Below are positions 6,389 to 58,173 of a DNA stretch of 64,000 nucleotides, one piece after another. How positions within the stretch are numbered: position 1 is the stretch's first letter; the number at the start of each line of letters is the position of its first letter. The translations under genes and the position numbers were made by a program. Below the pieces are notes generated by a model. The model saw only the letters and a program-made list of their open reading frames with translations. It was not told where the DNA came from and made no database searches. This DNA is from Cyanobium sp. PCC 7001 (lineage in GTDB: Bacteria; Cyanobacteriota; Cyanobacteriia; PCC-6307; Cyanobiaceae), in assembly GCF_000155635.1 (NCBI RefSeq), contig NZ_DS990556.1, positions 1,727,079 to 1,791,078 of the forward strand, given 5' to 3'.

Positions 6389-6938
6389 GTCCTCCCCCAC
6401 CAGCGACGCCATCGCGGCCGTGGAACCCGGCCCAGTGAGCCAGTGGCTGCGGAGCCAGGGTTTCGACCATGAGGTTCTCCCTGCCGACCACCTCGGCGTG
6501 GAGGTGATCGGCGTGGAGCCGGCCTTCCTGCCGGTGCTGGCCACGGCCCTGAAGGCCCACGGCTTCGACTACCTCCAGTGTCAGGGCGGTTACGACGAGG
6601 GCCCCGGCGGCCGGCTGGTGAGCTTCTACCACCTGGTGAAGCTGGCGGTGCTGGCGGAGCAGAGCGCCGCCACCCCCAAGCTGCCCAGCGACGTGCGCCC
6701 CCAGGAGGTGCGTCTGAAGGTGTTCCTCGCGAGGGACGGCGATCTCACCATCCCCAGCCTCTACGGCCTGTTCCGCGGAGCGGACTGGCAGGAGCGCGAG
6801 ACCTTCGACATGTACGGCATCCAGTTCGCGGGGCATCCCCATCCGAAGCGGCTGCTGATGCCGGAGGACTGGAAGGGCTGGCCGCTGCGCAAGGACTATG
6901 TGCAGCCTGACTTCTACGAAATGCAGGACGCCTACTAG
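6381..6938 (+). CDS. ndhJ: NAD(P)H-quinone oxidoreductase subunit J
   Basis: NdhJ (185 residues) is a hydrophilic subunit of the NDH-1 connecting arm, homologous to the 30-kDa subunit of complex I. The family signature [17 protein letters not shown] lies near residues 138-154, followed by RLLMPEDW and the C-terminal [17 protein letters not shown]. It is the last gene of ndhCKJ. Confidence 0.95.
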
Positions 6939-6958
6939 GCACCCTCACTGAGGCACAT

Positions 6959-7768
6959 TCAGGGCACGAAGTGCCGCGGCCGGCGGGGTCCGCCCCGCCG
7001 CACCTTCTCCACGCTGAGCTCCCCGTCCAGCAGCCAGGGATAGAAGAGGCGGAAATCCTCGGCGTAACGCCGGCGCAGCAGGGCCACCAGCTCGGGCTGG
7101 GCCAGCAGGGCCTCCAGATCCGCCGTGTCGCCGCCGCGGCGGCTGTTGCGGGTGCCAAGACGCCGGGGCAACCCCTGCACACCGGCGCGCCGGGCCTTGC
7201 GCACCAGGAACGGCCAGTGGTCCTCCAGGCTCTCGGCGTAGGCCACCCAGGTGGGCACGGGCTCGTCCCCGAGGCAGAGGATGTCGCTCTGGGGCAGCAC
7301 ATGCACATCCAGATCGTCGCTGGAGGCGGCGCACACGCAGGCGAGGAACTGGGGCAGGGGCATACCGTGACGCACGCCGATGGCCTTCAGCCTGGCGGTG
7401 CAGTCAGGGATTTCGATCACTTTGTTGTTGTAGGCCGAGAGCACCCGGTCGAACGGGTTGCGCACCACCGCGAAGCTGAAGCACTGGCCGCGCAGGGCAC
7501 GCGCCGTGTCCCGGTCCACCGGGTTGGCGATCGCGCCCGGCAGCCGCTCCCAGTACTCATCCATCCGGCAGGACAAGCCCAGCCAGGAGCGGCTGGGCCA
7601 GAGCCGATGCAGCAGCCGCTGGCGCAGGCTCTGGCGTGAGTGTCGCAGCTCCGGGCGGATCAGAACGGTGAGGGCCGCCTTGACGCTGCTGTTGGCGGCC
7701 TTGGGAACGCGGCCGTAAAGCAGGTGGTGGCCGGGCAGGTGAAGGAAGTGCTGGTCGGAAGCCGCCAT
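6959..7768 (-). CDS. Sulfotransferase family 2 protein
   Basis: The 269-residue product looks like a carbohydrate-type sulfotransferase that uses PAPS. The 5'-phosphosulfate loop is seen in YGRVPKAANSSVKAAL near residue 18, and the 3'-phosphate motif in FAVVRNPFDRVLSAYNNK near residue 100. It has no signal peptide. A plausible acceptor is a surface polysaccharide, but nothing in the neighbouring ndh and yvcK genes specifies it. It converges on ndhJ with a 20-bp gap. Confidence 0.8.
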   Translation of the reverse strand: MAASDQHFLHLPGHHLLYGRVPKAANSSVKAALTVLIRPELRHSRQSLRQRLLHRLWPSRSWLGLSCRMDEYWERLPGAIANPVDRDTARALRGQCFSFAVVRNPFDRVLSAYNNKVIEIPDCTARLKAIGVRHGMPLPQFLACVCAASSDDLDVHVLPQSDILCLGDEPVPTWVAYAESLEDHWPFLVRKARRAGVQGLPRRLGTRNSRRGGDTADLEALLAQPELVALLRRRYAEDFRLFYPWLLDGELSVEKVRRGGPRRPRHFVP

Positions 7769-7777
7769 GGGCGGAGA

Positions 7778-9106
7778 CTACACGGCCCTCACGGCGGCCC
7801 GGTGGCGGCGGTAGAAGCGCATCACGGCCACCGCCAGGCTGCGGGGATCGTGCCGCAGGGTGGCGGTGGGCCGGCCCCCCTGCAGGGCCGCCTGCATCAC
7901 CTCGTAGCCCAGGCGCTGCAGCTGGCGCACGTCGCAGCGCACCGGCGTGGCTCCCTTCTGGCGGTAGCGGTCCAGCAGCGGTGTGTCCTCCAGATCCTCC
8001 TGGGCCAGCACCGCCGTGAACAGGCGGTCCTGCACGCCGAGGGTGGCCAGCTGGGCCTCGATCGCCCGCAGGTGCCCCTCCACATCGAGGCCATCGGTCT
8101 CGCCCGGCTGGGTCATCAGGTTGCAGATGTAGAGCCTCGGTGCCTTGCTGCGGGCGATGGCCGCCACCAGCTCCGGCACCAGCAGGTTGGGGAGCAGGGA
8201 GGTGTAGAGGCTGCCCGGGCCCAGCACGATCAGATCGGCATGGGCGATGGCCTCGAGCGCCCGGGGCAGGGCGGGGGGGCGCTCCGGCGTGCAGCCCAGC
8301 CTCACGATCCGGCTGGAAGCATGGCCGATCGCCGATTCCCCCTCGAGCCGCTCGCCGTTCTCCAGCTCGGCCCAGAGGCGCACGTCGGCATTGGTGGCGG
8401 GCACCACCTGGCCCTGCACCGCCAGCACGCGGCTGCTGGCGGTGATCGCCGACTCGAGGCTGCCTGTGATCGCCGTGAGGGCGGAGAGGAAGAGGTTGCC
8501 GAAGCTGTGGCCCTCCAGGCCGTTGCCCGCCTTGAAGCGGTACTGGAACAGACGGGTGAGCAGGGGCTCCTCCCTGGCCAGGGCGGCGAGGCAGTTGCGG
8601 ATGTCGCCGGGGGGCTGCACGCCCAGCTCCCGCCGCAGCACGCCGCTGCTGCCGCCGTCATCGGCCACGGTGACGATCGCCGTGAGGTTGCTGCTGTAGC
8701 GCTTGAGGCCGCTGAGCAGGGTGGAGAGCCCGGTGCCGCCGCCCACCGCCACGATGCTGGGGCCGCGGTTGAGCCGGCCCTGGGCGGCGAGGGCATCCAC
8801 CAGATGGGTGCCGCGATCGGGGGCCAGGGCCTGCTGGATGGTGCCGAAGCTGCGGCTCTGGCCCAGCCAGATGAGGGCGGCCCCGATCGCCAGCACCAGG
8901 GGACCGGTGATGCCGCGCGGCAGCACGGTGGTGATGTTCTTCAGCAGCCACTGGATGCCGGCGATGGTCCAGTAGATCGGCTGCAGATCCGCCCACACGG
9001 CCGCACCCAGCAGGGCGATCAGCAGCCCGAGGCCGGAGGTGAGCACCCAGCGCTTCACCACCAGACCCGGCTGCAGCCAGCGCACGGCACGGCGCGAGCG
9101 GCTCAC
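7778..9106 (-). CDS. yvcK: YvcK/CofD-like gluconeogenesis factor
   Basis: YvcK-family proteins bind UDP-GlcNAc and influence carbon partitioning and cell-envelope growth. Motifs include VAVGGGTGLSTLLSGLK, TVADDGGSSGVLRRELG, PPGDIRNCLAAL and LGPGSLYTSLLPNL. Two hydrophobic segments occupy about residues 20-80, as in cyanobacterial homologs that are membrane-tethered. The start is taken as GTG at 9106, and the open frame continues upstream, so the N-terminus is uncertain. The sulfotransferase gene follows 9 bp downstream. Confidence 0.86.
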   Translation of the reverse strand: MSRSRRAVRWLQPGLVVKRWVLTSGLGLLIALLGAAVWADLQPIYWTIAGIQWLLKNITTVLPRGITGPLVLAIGAALIWLGQSRSFGTIQQALAPDRGTHLVDALAAQGRLNRGPSIVAVGGGTGLSTLLSGLKRYSSNLTAIVTVADDGGSSGVLRRELGVQPPGDIRNCLAALAREEPLLTRLFQYRFKAGNGLEGHSFGNLFLSALTAITGSLESAITASSRVLAVQGQVVPATNADVRLWAELENGERLEGESAIGHASSRIVRLGCTPERPPALPRALEAIAHADLIVLGPGSLYTSLLPNLLVPELVAAIARSKAPRLYICNLMTQPGETDGLDVEGHLRAIEAQLATLGVQDRLFTAVLAQEDLEDTPLLDRYRQKGATPVRCDVRQLQRLGYEVMQAALQGGRPTATLRHDPRSLAVAVMRFYRRHRAAVRAV

Positions 9107-49550: not shown

Positions 49551-50354
49551 ATGGCCAGCACACCAACCCCACCCCTCCTGCCGTCATCCTCCCGCCTGCG
49601 GTCCCTGCGTCTGCCGCTGGCCCTCGGCGCCACGGCCCTGGGCACGGGCGCCGCTGCCCTGCTGGGCAGTGCCCCGTCCGAGCGCGCCCAGGCGGCCAAT
49701 CTGTTCGGCAGCCAGCCGATCGCCGCAGGCCAGGCCATCGCCCTGGCCCAGCCTCTGGCAGGAGGCCGCTGGAACCTGATCGTGCTGGAACAGCTCCAGC
49801 CCGAGCCTCCGTGCTGGCGTGAATTCCCCGATGGGTCAGTGGTGTCCTACGACGGCGACGTGGCTGAGGGGGTCTGCGGCCGCTACCTCTCAAGCAGCGC
49901 CTACTCCCTGCGGGTCAACGACAGCGACCTCAGCAGCCCCTGGCGGCTGAGGGTCGAGAGCACCAACGGGGAGCTGCGGCTGATGGCCAGCAATCCCCAG
50001 CACACCACCCTGATTCCCGTGGCCACGGGCCGGGCTGCCGCCAACGGCCTGTCCGCCCTGCAGCTGGCCCCGGGCTGGAGTTTCCAGCGCCGCACCTACG
50101 GCAGCGAAACCCTGCGGCACCTCTACATGGCCCATGCCGAGCCCCTGCCGGTGCTGATCGCCCGGGCCCGGGGCGGCGGCGAGCTGGCGTCCCTGCCGGC
50201 GGTGACCCCACCCCCCTCGGTGGCCTCCGCCAGCCGGCTGGAGCGCACCAGCCGCCTCGGCCGACTGGATTCGCGGGTGTCGCGCACCACCAGCCGCCCC
50301 ACCTCCCGCCCCACCGGCGTGGTGGCCCTGGAGGTGGTGCCGTACGGCAGCTAG
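49551..50354 (+). CDS. DUF3747 domain secreted protein
   Basis: The 267-residue product has an N-terminal signal segment (RLPLALGATALGTGAAALLG, then a likely AQA cleavage site near residue 48). The DUF3747 domain follows, with NLFGSQPIAAGQAIALAQPL, GGRWNLIVLEQL, PPCWREFPDGSVVSYD and VAEGVCGRYLSSSAYSLRVN. The family is confined mostly to cyanobacteria and has no known role. The last ~60 residues are a Ser/Arg/Pro-rich tail. A purine-rich ribosome site (agaaaggg) precedes the ATG. Confidence 0.85.
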   Translation: MASTPTPPLLPSSSRLRSLRLPLALGATALGTGAAALLGSAPSERAQAANLFGSQPIAAGQAIALAQPLAGGRWNLIVLEQLQPEPPCWREFPDGSVVSYDGDVAEGVCGRYLSSSAYSLRVNDSDLSSPWRLRVESTNGELRLMASNPQHTTLIPVATGRAAANGLSALQLAPGWSFQRRTYGSETLRHLYMAHAEPLPVLIARARGGGELASLPAVTPPPSVASASRLERTSRLGRLDSRVSRTTSRPTSRPTGVVALEVVPYGS

Positions 50355-50435: not shown

Positions 50436-50532
50436 GGTGTGAGGAGTGCGGAACGTCTCTTCAGGGTCGAAACGAGGACAGACTCCCGAAGATCGTTCCA
50501 ACGTCCTGCCCCGCCTTCGGCGGGGCTTTTTT
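50436..50532 (+). ncRNA. Structured small RNA candidate with terminator
   Basis: The segment starts with a single-stranded-looking GGTGTGAGGAGTGC (50436-50449). A long hairpin follows, with arms 50450-50466 and 50485-50499 pairing as GGAACG/CGTTCC, TCTTC/GAAGA and GGG/CCC around an 18-base loop. An 8-bp GC terminator stem with a TTC loop and six T residues closes it. No plausible ORF occupies it. It lies between the convergent DUF3747 and rplL genes. It could be a free small RNA or a processed 3' end of the DUF3747 mRNA; I could not assign it to a known family. Confidence 0.6.
50508..50532 (+). terminator. Rho-independent terminator
   Basis: GCCCCGCC-TTC-GGCGGGGC followed by TTTTTT is a textbook intrinsic terminator on the plus strand. 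It ends the small RNA candidate and any read-through from the DUF3747 gene. Confidence 0.9.
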
Positions 50533-50578
50533 CTTGGCTGCCTACCGGCACTGGCGTCACTGACGATCAGCCGACACA

Positions 50579-50608
50579 ACAAAGCCGGCCCCAAGGGGCC
50601 GGCTTTGT
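50579..50608 (-). terminator. Probable terminator of rplJL
   Basis: A 14-bp inverted repeat (ACAAAGCCGGCCCC, loop AA, complementary arm) lies about 40 bp beyond the rplL stop. On the minus strand the 3' arm ends GGCTTTGTTGTG, a moderately T-rich tail, so it should terminate rplL transcription and may also work from the other side. Confidence 0.75.
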
Positions 50609-50649
50609 GCTCGGAAGCGGGGGGCCGGACATGCCGGCCCCGGCTGCGA

Positions 50650-51033
50650 TCACTTGATCGAAACCTTGCCGCCGGCTTCCTCGATGGCCTTCTTGAGGGC
50701 CTCGGCATCGGCCTTGGCGATACCCTCCTTCACCGCCTTGGGAGCGGCTTCCACCAGTGACTTCGCGTCACCCAGGCCCAGGCCGGTGGCTTCGCGCACG
50801 GCCTTCAGCACCTTGATCTTGGCCGCGGCATCGAAGGATTCGAGAATCACATCGAATTCGGTCTTCTCTTCGGCAGCCTCAGCGGCAGCTGCCGGAGCAG
50901 CGGCCATCACGACACCGGCAGAAGCGGCGGCGGACACGCCGAAGGCCTCTTCAATCTGCTTGACGAGCTCGGAAGCTTCCAGCAGGGAGAGGGATTTGAG
51001 TTGTTCGAGAATCTGGTCGGTCGTAGCAGACAT
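50650..51033 (-). CDS. rplL: Ribosomal protein bL12 (L7/L12)
   Basis: bL12 forms the flexible stalk of the 50S subunit that recruits translation factors. The 127-residue protein has the N-terminal dimerisation domain ([21 protein letters not shown]), an Ala-rich hinge (~40-55) and the conserved C-terminal domain ([38 protein letters not shown]). It follows rplJ by 80 bp. Confidence 0.97.
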
Positions 51034-51113
51034 GGTTGGGAATCAGCAACAGATCTGTGGGAAACAGTCGGATCGGTTGAGCTCAACAGCGGCGAGCGGG
51101 ATGAAGCCTGGCC

Positions 51114-51647
51114 TCAGGAGGCCTGGCCTTCCCCACCGGCGTGCTGCTGGAGGGCCCGAGCGAGACCGGAAGGAACCTCGTTGATGCCCACGGCCAGCTT
51201 GGTGGCCACGGCATTGATCGCACCGGCGATCTGGGCCATGAGCACCTCCTTGGAGGGCAGATCCCCGATGGCCTTGATCTCGGTCTGGGAGAGGAGCTTG
51301 CCTTCGAAAAGGCCGCCCTTGGTCTCAGACTTCTTCGTGTCCTTCTGGAAGGACTGCACGGCCTTCACCGCACCACCAACGTCGCCCTTGACGAGCACGA
51401 AGGCATTGGTGCCGGTGAGCAGGGATTCGAGTTCCGACCAGGCGCTGTTGCCATCAATGGCCCGGCGCATGAGGGTGTTTTTGGTCACCTTGCACACGCC
51501 GTTGCTGGCCTGCAGACGGGTCCGCAGATCAGACATTTCCTTGATGGAGAGGCCCTTGAAATCGAGGACCAGCGCCATTTCGGCCTCGCCGAGGAGCCCC
51601 TTGAGCTCTTCGACGATCTGTTGCTTGTTCTCCAGCGTGCGGCCCAT
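51114..51647 (-). CDS. rplJ: Ribosomal protein uL10
   Basis: uL10 anchors the bL12 stalk to 23S rRNA. The 177-residue protein starts at the ATG at 51647 ([19 protein letters not shown]) and contains [17 protein letters not shown] and [11 protein letters not shown], plus the C-terminal bL12-binding helix. It is separated from rplA, its usual neighbour, by the inserted gene group at 52007-56125, so it needs its own promoter in the 51648-52006 gap. Confidence 0.96.
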
Positions 51648-52006
51648 AGGAAAGGATCGGATCGGGGGAACAAGCCGGGTACGCGGCCCGGGACGCCGGC
51701 AAGGTGATCCAGGGGAGGATCGCCTCAGGCCAGCTCGAGGCCGCTGCATGCTCCTGACCGATCAGACCGTCGGCGGCTGCACACCGCTGAAGACCTGGGG
51801 CCGAAACCTGTCGCGTTCACCTCGGCAGGGCTTACGGATGGGAATGCCGCCGGGGTACCGGAGGATTCCAGGCCAACCTGCTGTCTGGGGTTGGGCGCGT
51901 GCCCATCTGGCCAATAGAGGCCAGCAAATCACCTTACCACCACAGCTGTTCTTTGCTTTTCAGAAATCCAGGCTTGAATGGGCTTCGTCTTCGCAGCAAA
52001 AGCACC
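51648..52006. promoter_or_regulatory. 359-bp intergenic region: probable rplJ leader and divergent promoters
   Basis: The gap separates rplJ (minus) and the 66-residue peptide gene (plus). The part near rplJ is long enough for an L10-type autoregulatory mRNA leader, which normally precedes rplJ, but I could not verify the kink-turn elements by eye. The part near the peptide gene (about 51925-51995) is clearly less GC-rich, with runs such as ttctttgcttttcag, and is the best place for its promoter. No strong ribosome-binding site precedes the ATG at 52007. Confidence 0.45.
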
Positions 52007-52207
52007 ATGGACAACCTGTTCGGTTTCAAGCTGATGGTTCGCCAGCCCCACGACGCCGCGGCCATGCAGGGCGCAGCCGAGTCGGTTGGCCTGCGCTCCG
52101 CGGTCAGCGCCAAGTTCGGCACCGAGCCCCAAACGACCGCCTGCACCATGAGCTCTTCGGTTTCCGCCAAGGTGGGCGGTGAGCCCACGGGCGCCCAACG
52201 TCGCTGA
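52007..52207 (+). CDS. 66-residue peptide with repeated motif, candidate RiPP precursor
   Basis: The peptide begins MDNLFGFKLMVRQPHD and has an N-terminal helix-prone part (~1-30) and a C-terminal part with two copies of an 11-residue motif, SAVSAKFGTEP (31-41) and SSVSAKVGGEP (50-60). The copies are 19 residues apart and separated by QTTACTMS. The tail is TGAQRR. This leader-plus-repeated-core layout is typical of ribosomal peptides with multiple modified cores. The next gene, starting 16 bp later, encodes an HExxH peptide-hydroxylase-like enzyme. I do not recognise the peptide family; a non-modified small protein remains possible. Confidence 0.62.
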   Translation: MDNLFGFKLMVRQPHDAAAMQGAAESVGLRSAVSAKFGTEPQTTACTMSSSVSAKVGGEPTGAQRR

Positions 52208-52223
52208 CGAACCTCCGGGATCC

Positions 52224-53258
52224 GTGCCGGTGACGTCGCACCCAAACCTGGCCGACGACGCCGTCCTGACAGCCTGTGTCGAGCACAATGCTCGCAAGGG
52301 GGAGCACGATCTGCTCGACTCGTTCCAGCAGTTGAGCAACGCTGCTCCCCAGCTGAACCTCGGCCCACTCGTGCTGGCCCTGCGACAGCGGCTGCAGGCA
52401 GCCCACAGCCCCCTCTCCCCGTGGGTGTATCTGGGCTACTACCTCCTCGGCCGGCAGATCCTCACCGGCCAGGGTGACCTTCTTCCCAGGTTCCACGACC
52501 TCCTCCTCGCTGAGATCGAGCGCCCCCAGCCGGTGGGCCAGATCGTGGAGTTCTGGAACCCGGCCCGGGCGGACCCGGCCCTCTGGCAGGCTGCCCTCGA
52601 CCTCTTTCAGGAAGGCGGCGACTTCTCTGGCGGCATGGAGCCACCTTCCGCCGAGGTGGGGGATCAGTACCGGACGGTGATTCCCGAAGCCCGCGGTCTG
52701 ATCCGGACCCTCGATCCCCCCCTGGCAGACCTGATGGACCGGCTTCAGCCGCTGCTGGTGCTCTGCGCGCCAGGCTCCAACGCCCGGTTCAGCGGAGAGG
52801 GCTTCGGCAATGCCACCTGCTTCTTCTTCCGCGGCGCCAGCCTCTTCAACGCCTCACGGCCCACGAATCCCATCCAGATGACGGAACGCCTGGTGCATGA
52901 GTATGCCCATGCGGAGCTGTTCGTGCTGGCCCAGGACGGTCCGCTCTGTCTGAATGGTGATGACGAGCGGCACAGCGTGAGGATCCGGCCGGACCCACGA
53001 CCGATGAACGGCATTCTTCACGCTCTGCATGTGGTGTCCAGGGTGTGCCCCGTGCTGCAACGGGCGCTGAGCCGCGGCATCCCCCCGAGCGATGCGTTCG
53101 AAGAGCTCACCGCTTCCTGCAGGCTGCTCATCGCCCAACAGCAGGAGTACGGAGCCTCCTCGCTCGCCGTGATCCGGAGCCATGCCCAGCTCACAACCCT
53201 GGGGGAGGCGGTGGTGGAGGCGGCAGCGGCCCGGCTGGCCAGCGGCGTGCCGGCCTGA
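52224..53258 (+). CDS. HExxH protein, likely alpha-ketoglutarate-type peptide beta-hydroxylase
   Basis: The ~344-residue protein has the metal motif HEYAH at residues 225-229 (context RLVHEYAHAELFVL), then DGPLCLNGDDERHSVRIRPDPRPMNGILHALHVVSRV with candidate third ligands at His266 and His269. This pattern matches the HEXXH putative peptide-modification family (TIGR04267-type), members of which hydroxylate Asp/Asn/Lys side chains in RiPP precursors. No zinc-protease features beyond HExxH were seen. I chose GTG 52224; an in-frame GTG at 52179 would overlap the peptide gene, and one at 52230 is also possible. It is followed by acyl-activation genes. Confidence 0.72.
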   Translation: MPVTSHPNLADDAVLTACVEHNARKGEHDLLDSFQQLSNAAPQLNLGPLVLALRQRLQAAHSPLSPWVYLGYYLLGRQILTGQGDLLPRFHDLLLAEIERPQPVGQIVEFWNPARADPALWQAALDLFQEGGDFSGGMEPPSAEVGDQYRTVIPEARGLIRTLDPPLADLMDRLQPLLVLCAPGSNARFSGEGFGNATCFFFRGASLFNASRPTNPIQMTERLVHEYAHAELFVLAQDGPLCLNGDDERHSVRIRPDPRPMNGILHALHVVSRVCPVLQRALSRGIPPSDAFEELTASCRLLIAQQQEYGASSLAVIRSHAQLTTLGEAVVEAAAARLASGVPA

Positions 53259-53275
53259 ACTCCGGCACAGCAGCC

Positions 53276-54829
53276 ATGGCTCCTGCCCTGATCCGTCAGC
53301 TGAAGCGCGACACCGCACGGACCCTCGGCCGGAATCCCGCCGAGGTGATGGTCGACTGGGCGGGGCGTCCAGTCACGGCGGCGGAACTGCTGGAGCGGTT
53401 GCAGGCGGAGTGCGCCTGGTTCGAGGCCTGGCGGGCCATGTTCAAGGACGGATCCAGCCCCTGCATCGCCCACCTTGCCCCGGATGGCCTGCCCCTGCTG
53501 ATCAGCACGATCGCCTGCCTGCTCAGCGGAGTCAGGCAGGCGATCGTGCCCCACGATGCCTCCAGCGTGGAGCGCGCCAGCCTCGCTCAGCGGTACGGCC
53601 TCACCCACTGGCTGGTGGGCCAGGCGTGGCAGGGCCGGACTTCTGAGCTGGCGGGGGAAGGGGACTGGGAGGGCGCCCCCGCCAGTCCGGAGCAGTTCGA
53701 CGTGGTGCCGCTCTCCGCAGGTCTCCAATCCGATGGTTCCCCCGAGGCCCATGCCGCCTTTGGAGAAGCGGAGGAGGCCCTCCTGCTCTCCACCACCTCG
53801 GGAACCAGCTCAGGGCGCCCCGGCATCAACCGAACGACCGCCTCCCAGATCCTGAGCGGTGTGCAGCGGCTGGACTGGTCGCCCTATCAGCTGCTGCACA
53901 GACCCCTGCTCGGACCCGGTCTGCAGCACCACAGCTCCCGGCTGTTCAAGCTGACATGCGTCATGCAGGGGACTGGCCTGGTGGTGCGCGATCCCCTCGC
54001 TCCGATCGGCCCGGATGTGCTCGCCCAGGGCTGCACCGGCACGCCGATGGCGCCACTGGCCCTGCGACGGCGGCTTGAGGCAGGGCAGCTGGATCGGCTG
54101 CCCGGTTCCTTCCTCGTCGTCACAGGGGCCGACCGGGTGCCGATGGCCCTGCGGGAGGCCGTGCGGCGGCTCCACAGCTGCAGCCTGGGGATCACCTACG
54201 CCACCAGCCAGTGCGGCCCGATCAGCTGGCTGAGCCCCGAGGCGCTGCTGGACCACCGCGAAGGCCTGGGCCATCCGCTGGACAACGTGAGGCTGGCGCT
54301 GATCGGCGCGCCCCGACTGCAGCGTGATGGGCTCGGCTTCCACGAGGTGCTGGTCAGCAAGGTCACGCGCTGGCAGGTGGAGCGGGAGGGGGGCGGCATG
54401 GAGGTGCAGCAGGCCGTGCAGGAGCCGTTCAACCCGAACGACCTGATCGCCCGCAGCGCCGACGGCGCACTCATCTTCGGCGGCCGCTCCAACGACGTGT
54501 TTCTGTTCAGCTCCCTGCTGATTTCCCCCCTGGAGATCGAGGATGTGCTGCGCGCCGACCCGCGCGTGCGCGACTGCGTGGCGTTCGGAGCCAATTCCGA
54601 ACACTATGGTGCCGTTCCCATGGCGGCTGTGGTGCTGCAACCCCGGAGTGCTGCAGGGTCCGGTGACGGGGAGACGGCCACGCTGCTGGCCGCATTGATG
54701 GAGCGGTGCCGCACGGCTCTGGGCCCGCGGCGGCCGCACCGCATCGTGCCGCTGGAGGCGCTGCCGCTCGGCCCCACCGGCAAACCGCTGCGGCGGGTGC
54801 TGGCGGAACGCTTCGCGTTGCGCTCATGA
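53276..54829 (+). CDS. AMP-forming acyl-activating enzyme (acyl/aryl ligase)
   Basis: The 517-residue product belongs to the adenylate-forming ANL superfamily. The ATP loop is LLLSTTSGTSSGRPGINRTT (~165-185), in which the usual TGxPK is changed to SGRPG. Motif A5 reads YATSQCGPISWL. The hinge region is LIFGGRSNDVFLFSSLLISPLEIEDVL, and the C-terminal lysine is in LGPTGKPLRRVL, so the catalytic Lys is kept. It would adenylate a carboxylic acid, then load CoA or the neighbouring carrier protein. It starts 17 bp after the HExxH gene and overlaps the hydrolase gene by 4 bp, indicating one operon. Confidence 0.82.
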   Translation: MAPALIRQLKRDTARTLGRNPAEVMVDWAGRPVTAAELLERLQAECAWFEAWRAMFKDGSSPCIAHLAPDGLPLLISTIACLLSGVRQAIVPHDASSVERASLAQRYGLTHWLVGQAWQGRTSELAGEGDWEGAPASPEQFDVVPLSAGLQSDGSPEAHAAFGEAEEALLLSTTSGTSSGRPGINRTTASQILSGVQRLDWSPYQLLHRPLLGPGLQHHSSRLFKLTCVMQGTGLVVRDPLAPIGPDVLAQGCTGTPMAPLALRRRLEAGQLDRLPGSFLVVTGADRVPMALREAVRRLHSCSLGITYATSQCGPISWLSPEALLDHREGLGHPLDNVRLALIGAPRLQRDGLGFHEVLVSKVTRWQVEREGGGMEVQQAVQEPFNPNDLIARSADGALIFGGRSNDVFLFSSLLISPLEIEDVLRADPRVRDCVAFGANSEHYGAVPMAAVVLQPRSAAGSGDGETATLLAALMERCRTALGPRRPHRIVPLEALPLGPTGKPLRRVLAERFALRS

Positions 54830-55824
54830 GCCAGGCACCGGCGCTGCCTTGGGAGGATCTTGAATGGGAGTTGCGGGGAGAAGCCCCGGCCCGGTGGGTC
54901 TCGCGGTTGGCAGGGATCAGCCTGAACCGCCTGCATCAGCACCAGCTGGTGATCAACCGGTTTGCCACCGGTCAGCAGCTGAGGAAGCTACTGAAGCTTG
55001 CCCGCGCGCGCGGCATCAACTCCGAGTGGCGCCGGCAATGGGCCGCACAGTCCCTGCTCTATTCCCCCCGGTTACGTCAGCAGGGCCCCCGGTACCGCCG
55101 GATCGACCATCCGGCCGCCAACCACTGGATCTCCCATTACCGCAGCCTGGATCGGGCCGGGGCAGCACAGAGGCCCGGGAGTCAGCGCCTCCGACGCCAT
55201 CTGGTGATCGGCTTCACGGGCAACCTCGGCCTGCTGATGGCTCCTATCCCCTACGTGCTGAGCGCCCTCGACGCCAGCGGTTATGACCTGCTGCTGGTGC
55301 GACGCCACAGCCTGGCGGGCTACTTCTCCCAGAACGGCCAGGTGCTCCTGGAGATCGAGCAGCACCTTCGCCGGCTGCTGCAAGGCCTTCAGGCCAAGGG
55401 GCTGGAGACAGAACAGATCTGCAGCCTGGGCACCAGCAGCGGAGGCCTGCCGGCCCTTGTGGTCGCCCGCAACCTGGGGTTGCCGCTCGGTATTGCCATC
55501 GGGGCTGGAGCCAGCCCGCCCCTGCTTGAGCCGGGCGGCCTCCTCGATCGGCTTCAGCCCGTCCGAACAACCGGAACCCCGCAGGATCACACCACCGACC
55601 TGATCCTGGCGTTCGCCGCAGAGAACGGCCAGGACAGCACTTGTGCCGAGCTCCTCCAGCACTACTACCGGGCGCGGCAGTGGCTGCAGGTCACACCGTC
55701 GCCCAGGGCCTATCCCGGCTGCGCAGCCCACGCCCTGTTCATTGATCTCGTGGCTCAGGGCTGCACACTTGATCAGGCGCTGAGCGATCTGCTGGCCCAT
55801 CCCCCTAGGGATCCTGGGGCCTGA
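54826..55824 (+). CDS. Alpha/beta-hydrolase-like protein
   Basis: The 332-residue product has a probable alpha/beta-hydrolase core from residue ~125: strand HLVIGFTGNLGLLMAPIPYVL, nucleophile elbow SLGTSSGGLPALVVARNL (Ser204 in GxSxG), and a C-terminal His candidate in PGCAAHALFIDLVAQG. The first ~120 residues are helical and basic. The closest roles in such a setting are thioesterase or acyltransferase acting on a carrier-bound acyl group; this is inference from context. Its 3' end overlaps the convergent carrier-protein gene by 20 bp. Confidence 0.68.
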   Translation: MSQAPALPWEDLEWELRGEAPARWVSRLAGISLNRLHQHQLVINRFATGQQLRKLLKLARARGINSEWRRQWAAQSLLYSPRLRQQGPRYRRIDHPAANHWISHYRSLDRAGAAQRPGSQRLRRHLVIGFTGNLGLLMAPIPYVLSALDASGYDLLLVRRHSLAGYFSQNGQVLLEIEQHLRRLLQGLQAKGLETEQICSLGTSSGGLPALVVARNLGLPLGIAIGAGASPPLLEPGGLLDRLQPVRTTGTPQDHTTDLILAFAAENGQDSTCAELLQHYYRARQWLQVTPSPRAYPGCAAHALFIDLVAQGCTLDQALSDLLAHPPRDPGA

Positions 55825-56125
55825 GCCGGGCGATCAGCTCCTGCACGGTCTGCATGCCCAGCAGGTCCGCTGGCGTGATCACAACGCCGTGGTCGAGCTC
55901 GAGGTGGATGCAGAGCTCCATGGATCCCAGGCTGTCAAGCCCAAGGCGCTGCATGGGGATGGAGGCCAGGTCTCCCTGCAGGTCAGTCTCGATGGCGCCC
56001 AGGTCGGACGGCGGGATCGACAAGGCCTGCAGAGCAGACATCAGGCGGGCTACGCCCGCCTGGTTGGCCTCCGCCCCAGGGGGCGGGGGATCTGTCTGCT
56101 CGGCCGCTGGTCGCCCCTGTTCCAC
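55805..56125 (-). CDS. Acyl carrier protein
   Basis: The product contains a phosphopantetheine attachment site in RLGLDSLGSMELCIHLE (Ser65 if read from GTG 56125). A helical carrier fold follows (VVITPADLLGMQTVQELIARL). From GTG 56125 it is 106 residues; an internal ATG at 56041 would give 78 residues, the usual ACP size. The gene lies 21 bp behind rplA on the same strand with no terminator between, and its end overlaps the hydrolase gene. The ligase and hydrolase on the other strand are its likely partners. Confidence 0.83.
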   Translation of the reverse strand: MEQGRPAAEQTDPPPPGAEANQAGVARLMSALQALSIPPSDLGAIETDLQGDLASIPMQRLGLDSLGSMELCIHLELDHGVVITPADLLGMQTVQELIARLRPQDP

Positions 56126-56146
56126 GAGCCCGTCACGGTGTTGATG

Positions 56147-56854
56147 TCAGCCCTCCTGCTTGAGGTCCTGCAGCGCCGAGAAGTCCACCTGCACCGAGGG
56201 GCCCATGGTGGAGGTCACGTACAGGGAGCGCCAGTAGCGGCCCTTGGCACCGCTGGGCTTGTTGCGGTCGATGGTCTCCTGCAGGGCCTTGAGGTTCTCC
56301 AGCAGCTTGGTGGGCTCGAAGCTGGCCTTGCCGAAGCGCACGTGCACGATGCCGGTGCGGTCGGCGCGGAACTCCAGCTTGCCCGCCTTGAACTCGGCGA
56401 TGGCGCCGGCCAGATCGGTGGTCACGGTGCCGGCCTTGGGGTTCGGCATCAAGCCGCGGGGACCGAGCACCCGGCCGAGCTTGGCCACCTTGGGCATCAT
56501 GTCGGGGGTGGCGATCAGCAGGTCGAAATCCATGGCACCGCCGGCGATCTGATCCACCAGATCGTCGTCGCCGGCCAGATCGGCACCGGCGGCCTTGGCG
56601 GCGGCCACGGCCTCACCGCGGGCGATCACGGCGATGCGGATGCTCTGGCCAGTGCCGTGGGGCAGGGCCACGGTGGTGCGCAGTTGCTGGTCGGTGTACT
56701 TGGGATCGATGCCGAGGCGCACATGGGCCTCGATCGTTTCGTCGAACTTGGCGTTGGCGTTGGCCTTCACCAGTTCGATGGCCTCCAGGGGCTCGTAGGC
56801 GCGCTCGGCGACCTTGGCCTGGAGGGAGGAAAAGCGCTTGGAAACGTTGGGCAT
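56147..56854 (-). CDS. rplA: Ribosomal protein uL1
   Basis: uL1 forms the mobile L1 stalk of the large subunit and commonly represses its own operon. The 235-residue protein starts at ATG 56854 ([15 protein letters not shown]) and contains [55 protein letters not shown] and the C-terminal [10 protein letters not shown]. It is normally followed by rplJ; here a carrier-protein gene follows. Confidence 0.97.
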
Positions 56855-56948
56855 GGCGGTGATGGGGTGCGGGCGATGCAGGACTGCCAGGGGCGCTGGG
56901 CGCCGGCGGCGGCTGGCTGGATCTCCCCCGGTGATGGGAACGGAAGGA

Positions 56949-57374
56949 TCAGTCGCTGACGGCGACGCCCATGTTGCGGGCGGTGCCTTCGATGATGCGC
57001 ATGGCCGATTCAACGCTGGTGCAGTTGAGGTCGGGCAGCTTGGTCTTGGCGATCTCCTCGAGCTGGGCACGGCTGATGGCACCCACGGCCCCCTTGGAGG
57101 AGGTGGCGGCGCCCTTCTCGATGCCGGCCGCCTTGGAGATCAGCACGGAGGCGGGAGGGGTCTTGGTGATGAAGGTGAAGCTGCGGTCTTCGAAGACCGA
57201 GATCTCCACCGGGATCACGTAACCGGCCTTGTCCTGCGTGCGGGCGTTGTACTCCTTGCAGAACGCCATGATGTTGACGCCGTGCTGACCGAGGGCAGGG
57301 CCCACGGGTGGCGCCGGGTTGGCTTTGCCGGCCTGGAGGGCCAGCTTGATCACGGCTACGACTTTCTTGGCCAT
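56949..57374 (-). CDS. rplK: Ribosomal protein uL11
   Basis: uL11 (141 residues) forms part of the GTPase-associated centre with 23S rRNA. It shows [26 protein letters not shown] and the C-terminal RNA-binding domain with [19 protein letters not shown] and [12 protein letters not shown]. It stands between nusG and rplA in the standard order. Confidence 0.97.
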
Positions 57375-57477
57375 CGTCTCGAACTACTGGGCGGGTCTGC
57401 GGATCGCCTCCGGGTGGAAGGCGGTGATGGAACGGCCGCCCTCCGCAGGGAGACGGCCGCTGAGCGGAGCCTGGAGC

Positions 57478-58173
57478 TCAGCTCTGCTTGCTGATCTGGG
57501 CGAACTCGAGCTCCACGGGGGTCTCGCGGCCGAAGATCGAGAGCAGGGCCTTGAGCTTGTTGCGCTCGCCCGACACCTCGATCACCTCGCCCTGGAAGTC
57601 CTTGAACGGACCGGCGGTGACGAGGATCTGGTCGCCCTCGCTGAGGTCGACCTTCACCACGGGTTTCTTCTCCGCGGCCCGCTTGAAGATGCGGTCCACC
57701 TCCTGGCGGCTGAGCGGGCGGGGCTTGATGTGGCCGCGGGCCCGGGCGGTGGCGCGACGCTCCTCGGCCCCCACGAAGTTGATCACGTTGGGGGTGCTGC
57801 GCACCGCCATCATCGTGTCCTCATCGAGCACCATCCGCACCAGCACGTAGCCGGGGAACACCTTCTCCTCGGTGCTCTGGCGGCTGCCGTCCTTCTTCAG
57901 CTTGACGCCCGGGGTCTGGGGGATCTCGATCTCGAGGATGCGGTTGTCCACGCCGAGGGTCACGGCCCGCTGCTCCAGGGTGGCCTTCACCTTCTTCTCG
58001 CAGCTGGACGCCACCTGCACCGCGTACCAGCGGGCCACCTGGCGCTTCTCGCCGGCCGCTTCGGTGGACGCGGTGTCGGCTCCGGCGGCCGGCAGCTCCA
58101 GTCCGGCATCAGCCGCGGGGTCGGCTTCGCTGGCGACGTTGTCGACTTGGCTTTCGGACAGGGTCTCGGACAC
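57478..58173 (-). CDS. nusG: Transcription termination/antitermination protein NusG
   Basis: NusG binds RNA polymerase and couples transcription to Rho or ribosomes. The NGN domain starts near residue 45 (ARWYAVQVASSCEKKVKATLE), with VFPGYVLVRMVLDEDTM, and the KOW domain ends the protein (GDQILVTAGPFKDFQGEVIEV). The first ~45 residues form an acidic Ala/Glu-rich leader. It lies between secE and rplK. Confidence 0.95.
   Translation of the reverse strand: MSETLSESQVDNVASEADPAADAGLELPAAGADTASTEAAGEKRQVARWYAVQVASSCEKKVKATLEQRAVTLGVDNRILEIEIPQTPGVKLKKDGSRQSTEEKVFPGYVLVRMVLDEDTMMAVRSTPNVINFVGAEERRATARARGHIKPRPLSRQEVDRIFKRAAEKKPVVKVDLSEGDQILVTAGPFKDFQGEVIEVSGERNKLKALLSIFGRETPVELEFAQISKQS

Follow-up and report, generated by a model that had tools for sequence, protein, structure and literature searches.

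What a 66-amino-acid peptide with an internal repeat might do inside a row of ribosomal protein genes is the question raised by this locus of Cyanobium sp. PCC 7001, which we analyzed as a stretch of 64,000 nucleotides (hereafter the window). The peptide is encoded on the forward strand at 52007..52207, from an ATG at 52007 to a TGA at 52205-52207 (product: MDNLFGFKLMVRQPHDAAAMQGAAESVGLRSAVSAKFGTEPQTTACTMSSSVSAKVGGEPTGAQRR). The frame is open upstream of this ATG as far as a GTG at 51899, and the ATG start is supported by homologs that carry LFGF within about 3-14 residues of their own start. The two 11-residue repeats claimed in the preliminary description were found exactly at residues 31-41 (SAVSAKFGTEP, 52097..52129, forward strand) and 50-60 (SSVSAKVGGEP, 52154..52186, forward strand), identical at 8 of 11 residues. 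When the residues of the peptide were shuffled 20,000 times, a single shuffle reached at least 8 identities. The P-value is post hoc in that the ORF was picked by a reader from the 64-kb window; the recurrence of the motif in peptides of six other genomes, within the same cassette, is stronger evidence. At the DNA level the two copies share 23 of 33 bases, and three of the eight identical residues use different codons (e.g. Ser AGC and Ser TCC), which is more in keeping with protein-level selection or an ancient duplication than with a recent one. The Cys is indeed single (C46), lies outside both motifs, and is absent from the invariant columns of the homologs; with no Cys in either core and no match to a LanB/LanC/LanM-type enzyme among the five cassette proteins, lanthionine or disulfide cores can be dropped and the peptide is set apart from lanthipeptides. 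No Pfam or NCBIfam family was matched by the peptides tested.

The peptide gene is the first of a cassette set between rplJ/rplL and rplA/rplK, in which it is followed on the forward strand by genes for an HExxH hydroxylase, an AMP-forming ligase, and an alpha/beta-hydrolase-like protein, and then by an acyl carrier protein (ACP) gene converging from the reverse strand. The flanking rplJ (51114..51650) and rplA (56147..56890) both lie on the reverse strand, and the rplJ protein is 89-97% identical in eight cassette-free relatives. The enzyme next to the peptide (52224..53258, forward strand, with possible GTG starts at 52179, 52224, and 52230) is predicted to be an alpha-ketoglutarate-dependent HExxH peptide beta-hydroxylase, with a TIGR04267 score of 87 bits, above the cut-off of 40. 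Its AlphaFold2 model (pLDDT 88.4) matched ChlH (8s5f), an enzyme of this type with a solved structure, in Foldseek with an E-value of 2e-11 and a TM-score of 0.64, and SjiH (22ob) more weakly; a literature search on SjiH returned nothing relevant. The HExxH residues (HEYAH, 52896..52910, forward strand) and those of an R-x-D-x-RP-x-x-G-x-x-H motif align with ChlH, and both motifs are present in all seven close enzymes and in 4/5 distant ones, the fifth (L030) deviating as R-x-E-x-RP.

The remaining three proteins would form an acyl-activating set. The 517-residue ligase (53276..54829, forward strand) belongs to the AMP-forming (ANL) type, with a PF13193 match of 40 bits, no PF00501 match, and a C-terminal GK kept in 7/7 cassette genomes; many acyl-CoA ligase models also match, all of them, among the matches listed, far below the curated NCBIfam cut-offs. 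Its stop is overlapped by the start of the 332-residue hydrolase-like protein (54826..55824, forward strand), for which no match was found in Pfam or NCBIfam and whose assignment comes from predicted structure: the model (pLDDT 84.7) resembles esterases and other alpha/beta hydrolases, with TM-scores of only 0.37-0.49 on the model's length among the 50 matches listed. The ACP (106 residues, 55805..56125, reverse strand) matches PF00550 at 35 bits. Both the Ser-Asp-His of the hydrolase-like protein and the carrier Ser of the ACP, in a [DE]SLG context, are kept in 7/7 genomes, counting copies that in one genome (G362) lie on another contig. The cassette enzymes thus look active, judging from intact active-site residues. 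We identified neither a transporter, a protease, nor a RiPP recognition element within the cassette, and no Rfam RNA family was found in 50500-57600. Beyond rplL, at 49551-50354 of the window, lies a DUF3747 protein (117 bits), whose position is kept in loci L015, L016, and L017.

A search of 60 relatives with the 66-residue peptide alone returned only the window's own copy, and relatives were found through the HExxH neighbor. Among 400 genomes of the family, 11 matched the HExxH protein, comprising seven close genomes (the window's own, G000, with G362, G079, G005, G004, G337, and G342) and four distant ones (G180, G284, G192, and G035). Overlapping genome sets were also covered: G460 and G533 came in addition from 388 genomes of the class, G927 and G942 (neither among the loci described here) from 386 genomes of the phylum searched with TIGR04267, and 42 genomes of one genus gave five matches, none of them new. 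A plasmid collection yielded four records for the L030 enzyme and one for the window's enzyme, and a scan of viral contigs found no match. The cassette is thus found in 7/400 family genomes, and all seven have such a peptide. A peptide profile matched eight of the 400 genomes, namely these seven and one weak match, a concordance that is partly by construction, the profile having been built from the seven. The weak match (G264, E 0.007) was dropped, since none of the three frames that were translated contains LFGF. A second match in G342 (C188) was traced to a neighboring contig whose end overlaps over 149 bp (100% identity), with rplJ lying further on.

The site of the cassette is also shared, so far as it is visible. 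Both flanks of the rplJ-rplA site lie on one contig in five cases (the window, L015, L016, L017, and L019), in G342 they span two overlapping contigs, and G004 shows the rplA side only. In all eight cassette-free relatives examined, rplJ adjoins rplA, with 276-932 bp between aligned ends; in the window the distance is 4,499 bp. Within the cassette, the ligase gene follows the HExxH gene in six of the seven and follows the peptide in L017, where the peptide gene has a shifted place but is retained. The G362 cassette itself is without ACP and hydrolase, and those two genes adjoin each other on a different contig, away from the peptide, which argues that the two work together and may serve more than one pathway. 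Side observations at the site include, in G079, a second AMP-ligase relative located in this same rplA-rplJ gap (L016:1486-3069), with 31% identity to the ligase of the window, and, in the G004 cassette region, a stretch that looks like a decayed copy of such a ligase (L018:5360-6130) and two overlapping frames that by eye resemble a frameshifted GNAT acetyltransferase (L018:4970-5452).

The peptides of the close genomes are only 30-52% identical to that of the window, and all eight intact ones combine an N-terminal LFGF with one to three SxxSAKxG-like motifs. There is one motif copy in L015 (SAVSAKVGEP), in L017 (SALSAKVGADEP), and in each of L019 and L020 (SALSAKVGGPEP), whereas L016 has two (SALHPKVGTEP and SRISAKIGEP) with a degenerate third (SAVLDKMGD). 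L018 encodes one peptide with two copies (TPVTAKMGNGDWPIEP and SALTAKVADPVEP), another with one (SHTTAKVSSDTEP), and a third peptide-like stretch (782-928) that by eye has no ATG, GTG, or TTG ahead of the motif; we counted the last as a remnant and kept it in the alignment of nine. In that alignment the invariant columns, in window numbering, are L4, G6, F7, S50, K55, and P60, the first three falling in the putative leader motif LFGFKL (residues 4-9, 52016..52033, forward strand) and the others in the second core copy.

These comparisons bear on several points of the preliminary description. It had proposed to follow whether motif number varies over a constant leader, and this is the case, as one, two, or three motifs occur while LFGF stays. 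Its leader of 30 N-terminal residues holds as to a leader motif and fails as to length, since only residues 4-9 are conserved and the core of L015 begins a few residues past LFGFQL. Duplicate cores in the precursor of a modified peptide are borne out by the variable copies and the adjoining HExxH gene, but two copies are not essential: in four of the seven cassette genomes a single-motif peptide is the sole one. Homologs lacking any repeat, which had been named as evidence against the proposal, therefore do occur in part. Conservation over the whole length, as in an ordinary small structural protein, had been named likewise and is not seen; it is confined to the two short motifs, and the rest of the peptide is variable. 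As for the Lys and Glu singled out as conserved, the Lys is kept in 9/9 aligned peptides, while the Glu, which follows as Glu-Pro in almost every peptide of the close group, is not kept in the L030 peptides.

Five distant HExxH loci (L021, L022, L023, L024, and L030) also have peptides upstream of the HExxH gene, with GF and an [AS]-[KR]-[IVL]-G motif. There are four tandem peptides in L021 (e.g. ...GQYGFS...SLIAKIGLGEGG), five in L030 (LLGFK...QAKIG), two in L024 (LHGFRL...AKIGE and LHGFRL...AAKIGAKVG), and one each in L022 and L023 (LHGFRL...GARLGxKVG), where the motif Lys is replaced by Arg. Small ORFs with the motif pair make up 19/73 of those near HExxH genes (just upstream, or in L017 at its peptide) as against 3/1303 elsewhere in the same sequences and 1/305 in control loci, counts to be read in the light of a pattern written after the peptides had been seen. 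One of the three ORFs elsewhere is the second L024 peptide, and the pattern missed the L019 peptide, whose mechanical ORF begins far upstream. Around L021-L024, the stretch read showed none of the ribosomal genes that flank the cassette. In all five distant loci ATP-grasp domains lie beside the peptides, several of them matching below Pfam gathering scores, and the L030 protein is most like cyanophycin synthetase, although its best score of 247.9 bits is far below the cut-off of 877. In four of the five, the ORFs examined include an ATP-grasp enzyme and no ligase/ACP set. In L021, the HExxH gene is directly followed by one for an 845-residue protein that combines an AMP-binding domain (86 bits) with a carrier domain (17 bits, cut-off 20.8) and a further region; at the sequence level no relation between this C-terminal region and the hydrolase of the window could be detected (hhalign E 0.12), so that the A-T-hydrolase parallel with the window is one of architecture only.

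In L030 (6855-9014), the five tandem peptide genes precede a single HExxH gene whose third-position G+C of 0.33 is well below that of most neighbors, which suggests recent arrival. A further candidate, L031 (G533, 6795-9051), was set aside as another type, as no motif-pair peptide was found there and the gene setting is different; its HExxH gene adjoins one that reads by eye as radical SAM.

In all seven cassettes, then, a short gene lies beside that of a peptide-modifying enzyme, and its product has a conserved leader motif and a separate core, as RiPP precursors do. We consider that these peptides probably constitute a RiPP family that has not been described before and in which the number of cores varies. 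The reading that we favor, with moderate confidence, is that the window encodes a RiPP precursor with two cores, hydroxylated in the core by the HExxH enzyme and acylated there, probably in the region of the invariant Lys, by a relay of ligase, ACP, and hydrolase. In this scheme, LFGFKL would be the recognition sequence bound by the HExxH enzyme, which with Fe(II), alpha-ketoglutarate, and O2 would add a hydroxyl group to one residue in each SxVSAKxGxEP core. The ligase would then presumably turn a carboxylic acid into an adenylate and load it onto the ACP, from which the hydrolase-like protein, acting as a transferase, would pass the acyl group to the core Lys amine, or to a Ser or the newly made hydroxyl; two motifs would yield two modified units per precursor. 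The parts of this scheme differ in strength. It is very likely that the peptide is a substrate of the HExxH enzyme, and the core motif is a likely site of modification. That the relay acylates the peptide seems to us somewhat better founded than not, and the motif Lys as acyl acceptor is a tentative assignment; the modified residue may be this Lys, invariant in the close group and Arg in L022/L023, or a Ser, also invariant in the close group. The earlier proposal of hydroxylation or acylation is therefore reasonable from the gene set, whereas its placement on a given residue goes beyond the sequence.

It is also conceivable, and by our estimate has perhaps one chance in a few, that the peptide is a precursor of the HExxH enzyme while ligase, ACP, and hydrolase serve to make or unload a small acid of its own kind, or join that acid to the released peptide, rather than acylate the precursor Lys. 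The separation of ACP and hydrolase from the peptide genes in G362 would fit such a division of labor, as would the likeness of the hydrolase to esterases and the four distant loci with ATP-grasp enzymes in place of a ligase/ACP set among the examined ORFs; against it, the ligase gene keeps its place after the HExxH gene in six cassettes and after the peptide in L017, and the ligase-carrier fusion of L021 directly follows the HExxH gene.

An ordinary small regulatory or structural protein, for instance of the neighboring ribosomal genes, whose repeat is unrelated to modification, is improbable. The rplJ-rplA position in every cassette with visible flanks and a peptide without family match are what one would expect of it, but the same ribosomal genes adjoin without a cassette in 8/8 relatives, conservation is restricted to two short motifs, and related peptides adjoin HExxH genes in L021-L024, away from any such ribosomal genes in the stretch read. 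That the ORF is merely a chance open frame in GC-rich DNA is a thought prompted by the window's G+C of 0.70 and its many spurious overlapping ORFs; the motif pair kept in the same cassette of seven genomes contradicts it, and we regard it as highly improbable.

Returning to the two-core precursor with hydroxylation and acylation, a broader and more speculative extension, which we think rather unlikely as a whole, is that of a new RiPP class. HExxH hydroxylation in a Ser-x-x-Ser-Ala-Lys-x-Gly core would be followed by acylation of the same Lys or the new hydroxyl, through a split NRPS-like A-T-transferase relay or, elsewhere, a cyanophycin-synthetase-like ATP-grasp enzyme, and the core repeats would set how many finished units there are. 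If true, this would mean ribosomal peptides finished by carrier-protein chemistry; the association with a relay in one lineage and with ATP-grasp ligases elsewhere would, if confirmed, link ribosomal peptides to NRPS-like acyl chemistry. The family of HExxH peptide hydroxylases is young, and which transformations its members carry out is not yet predictable (PMC13060819); a fixed short leader with a countable core motif makes the HExxH target testable here. Moreover, a cassette inside the ribosomal protein gene row of small cyanobacteria sits at a spot that genome miners may overlook.

In the literature searched, with most subscription journals outside the coverage, no title or abstract treats this peptide family, and no paper brings together an HExxH enzyme, an ACP, and a precursor peptide. 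Among lipidated RiPPs, the selidamides, reportedly described by Hubrich et al. in 2022, are said to be acylated by GNAT acyltransferases. They resemble the window in that a Lys or amine of the peptide may be acylated, but the cassette proteins gave no GNAT match and a ligase-ACP-hydrolase set stands in its place. Likeness to graspetides and cyanophycin synthetase belongs to the distant HExxH loci and not to the window cassette, among whose proteins no ATP-grasp enzyme was found. Hydroxylation of RiPP precursors by HExxH enzymes is itself established in the literature available to us in part: PflC and PosC act on Gln (PMC12636437), PesO acts on Pro and earlier members on His, Asp, Phe, and Gln (PMC13060819), and BipH is a further precursor hydroxylase (PMC12707348). 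Lys is not named as a target in the accessible portions of these three articles, and the characterized targets are His, Asp, Phe, Gln, and Pro (PMC13060819), whereas the invariant core residues of the window precursor are Ser, Lys, and Pro. The window enzyme is like ChlH/ChlB-HExxH, PflC/PosC, BipH/BpmH, and PesO in its TIGR04267 match, ChlH-like predicted fold, motifs, and adjoining precursor gene, as far as those systems are described in the excerpts available. Characterized clusters in the same excerpts pair the HExxH enzyme with radical SAM, MNIO, nitroreductase, GNAT, or Asn-synthetase-like enzymes, whereas that of the window is accompanied by a ligase, an ACP, and a hydrolase.
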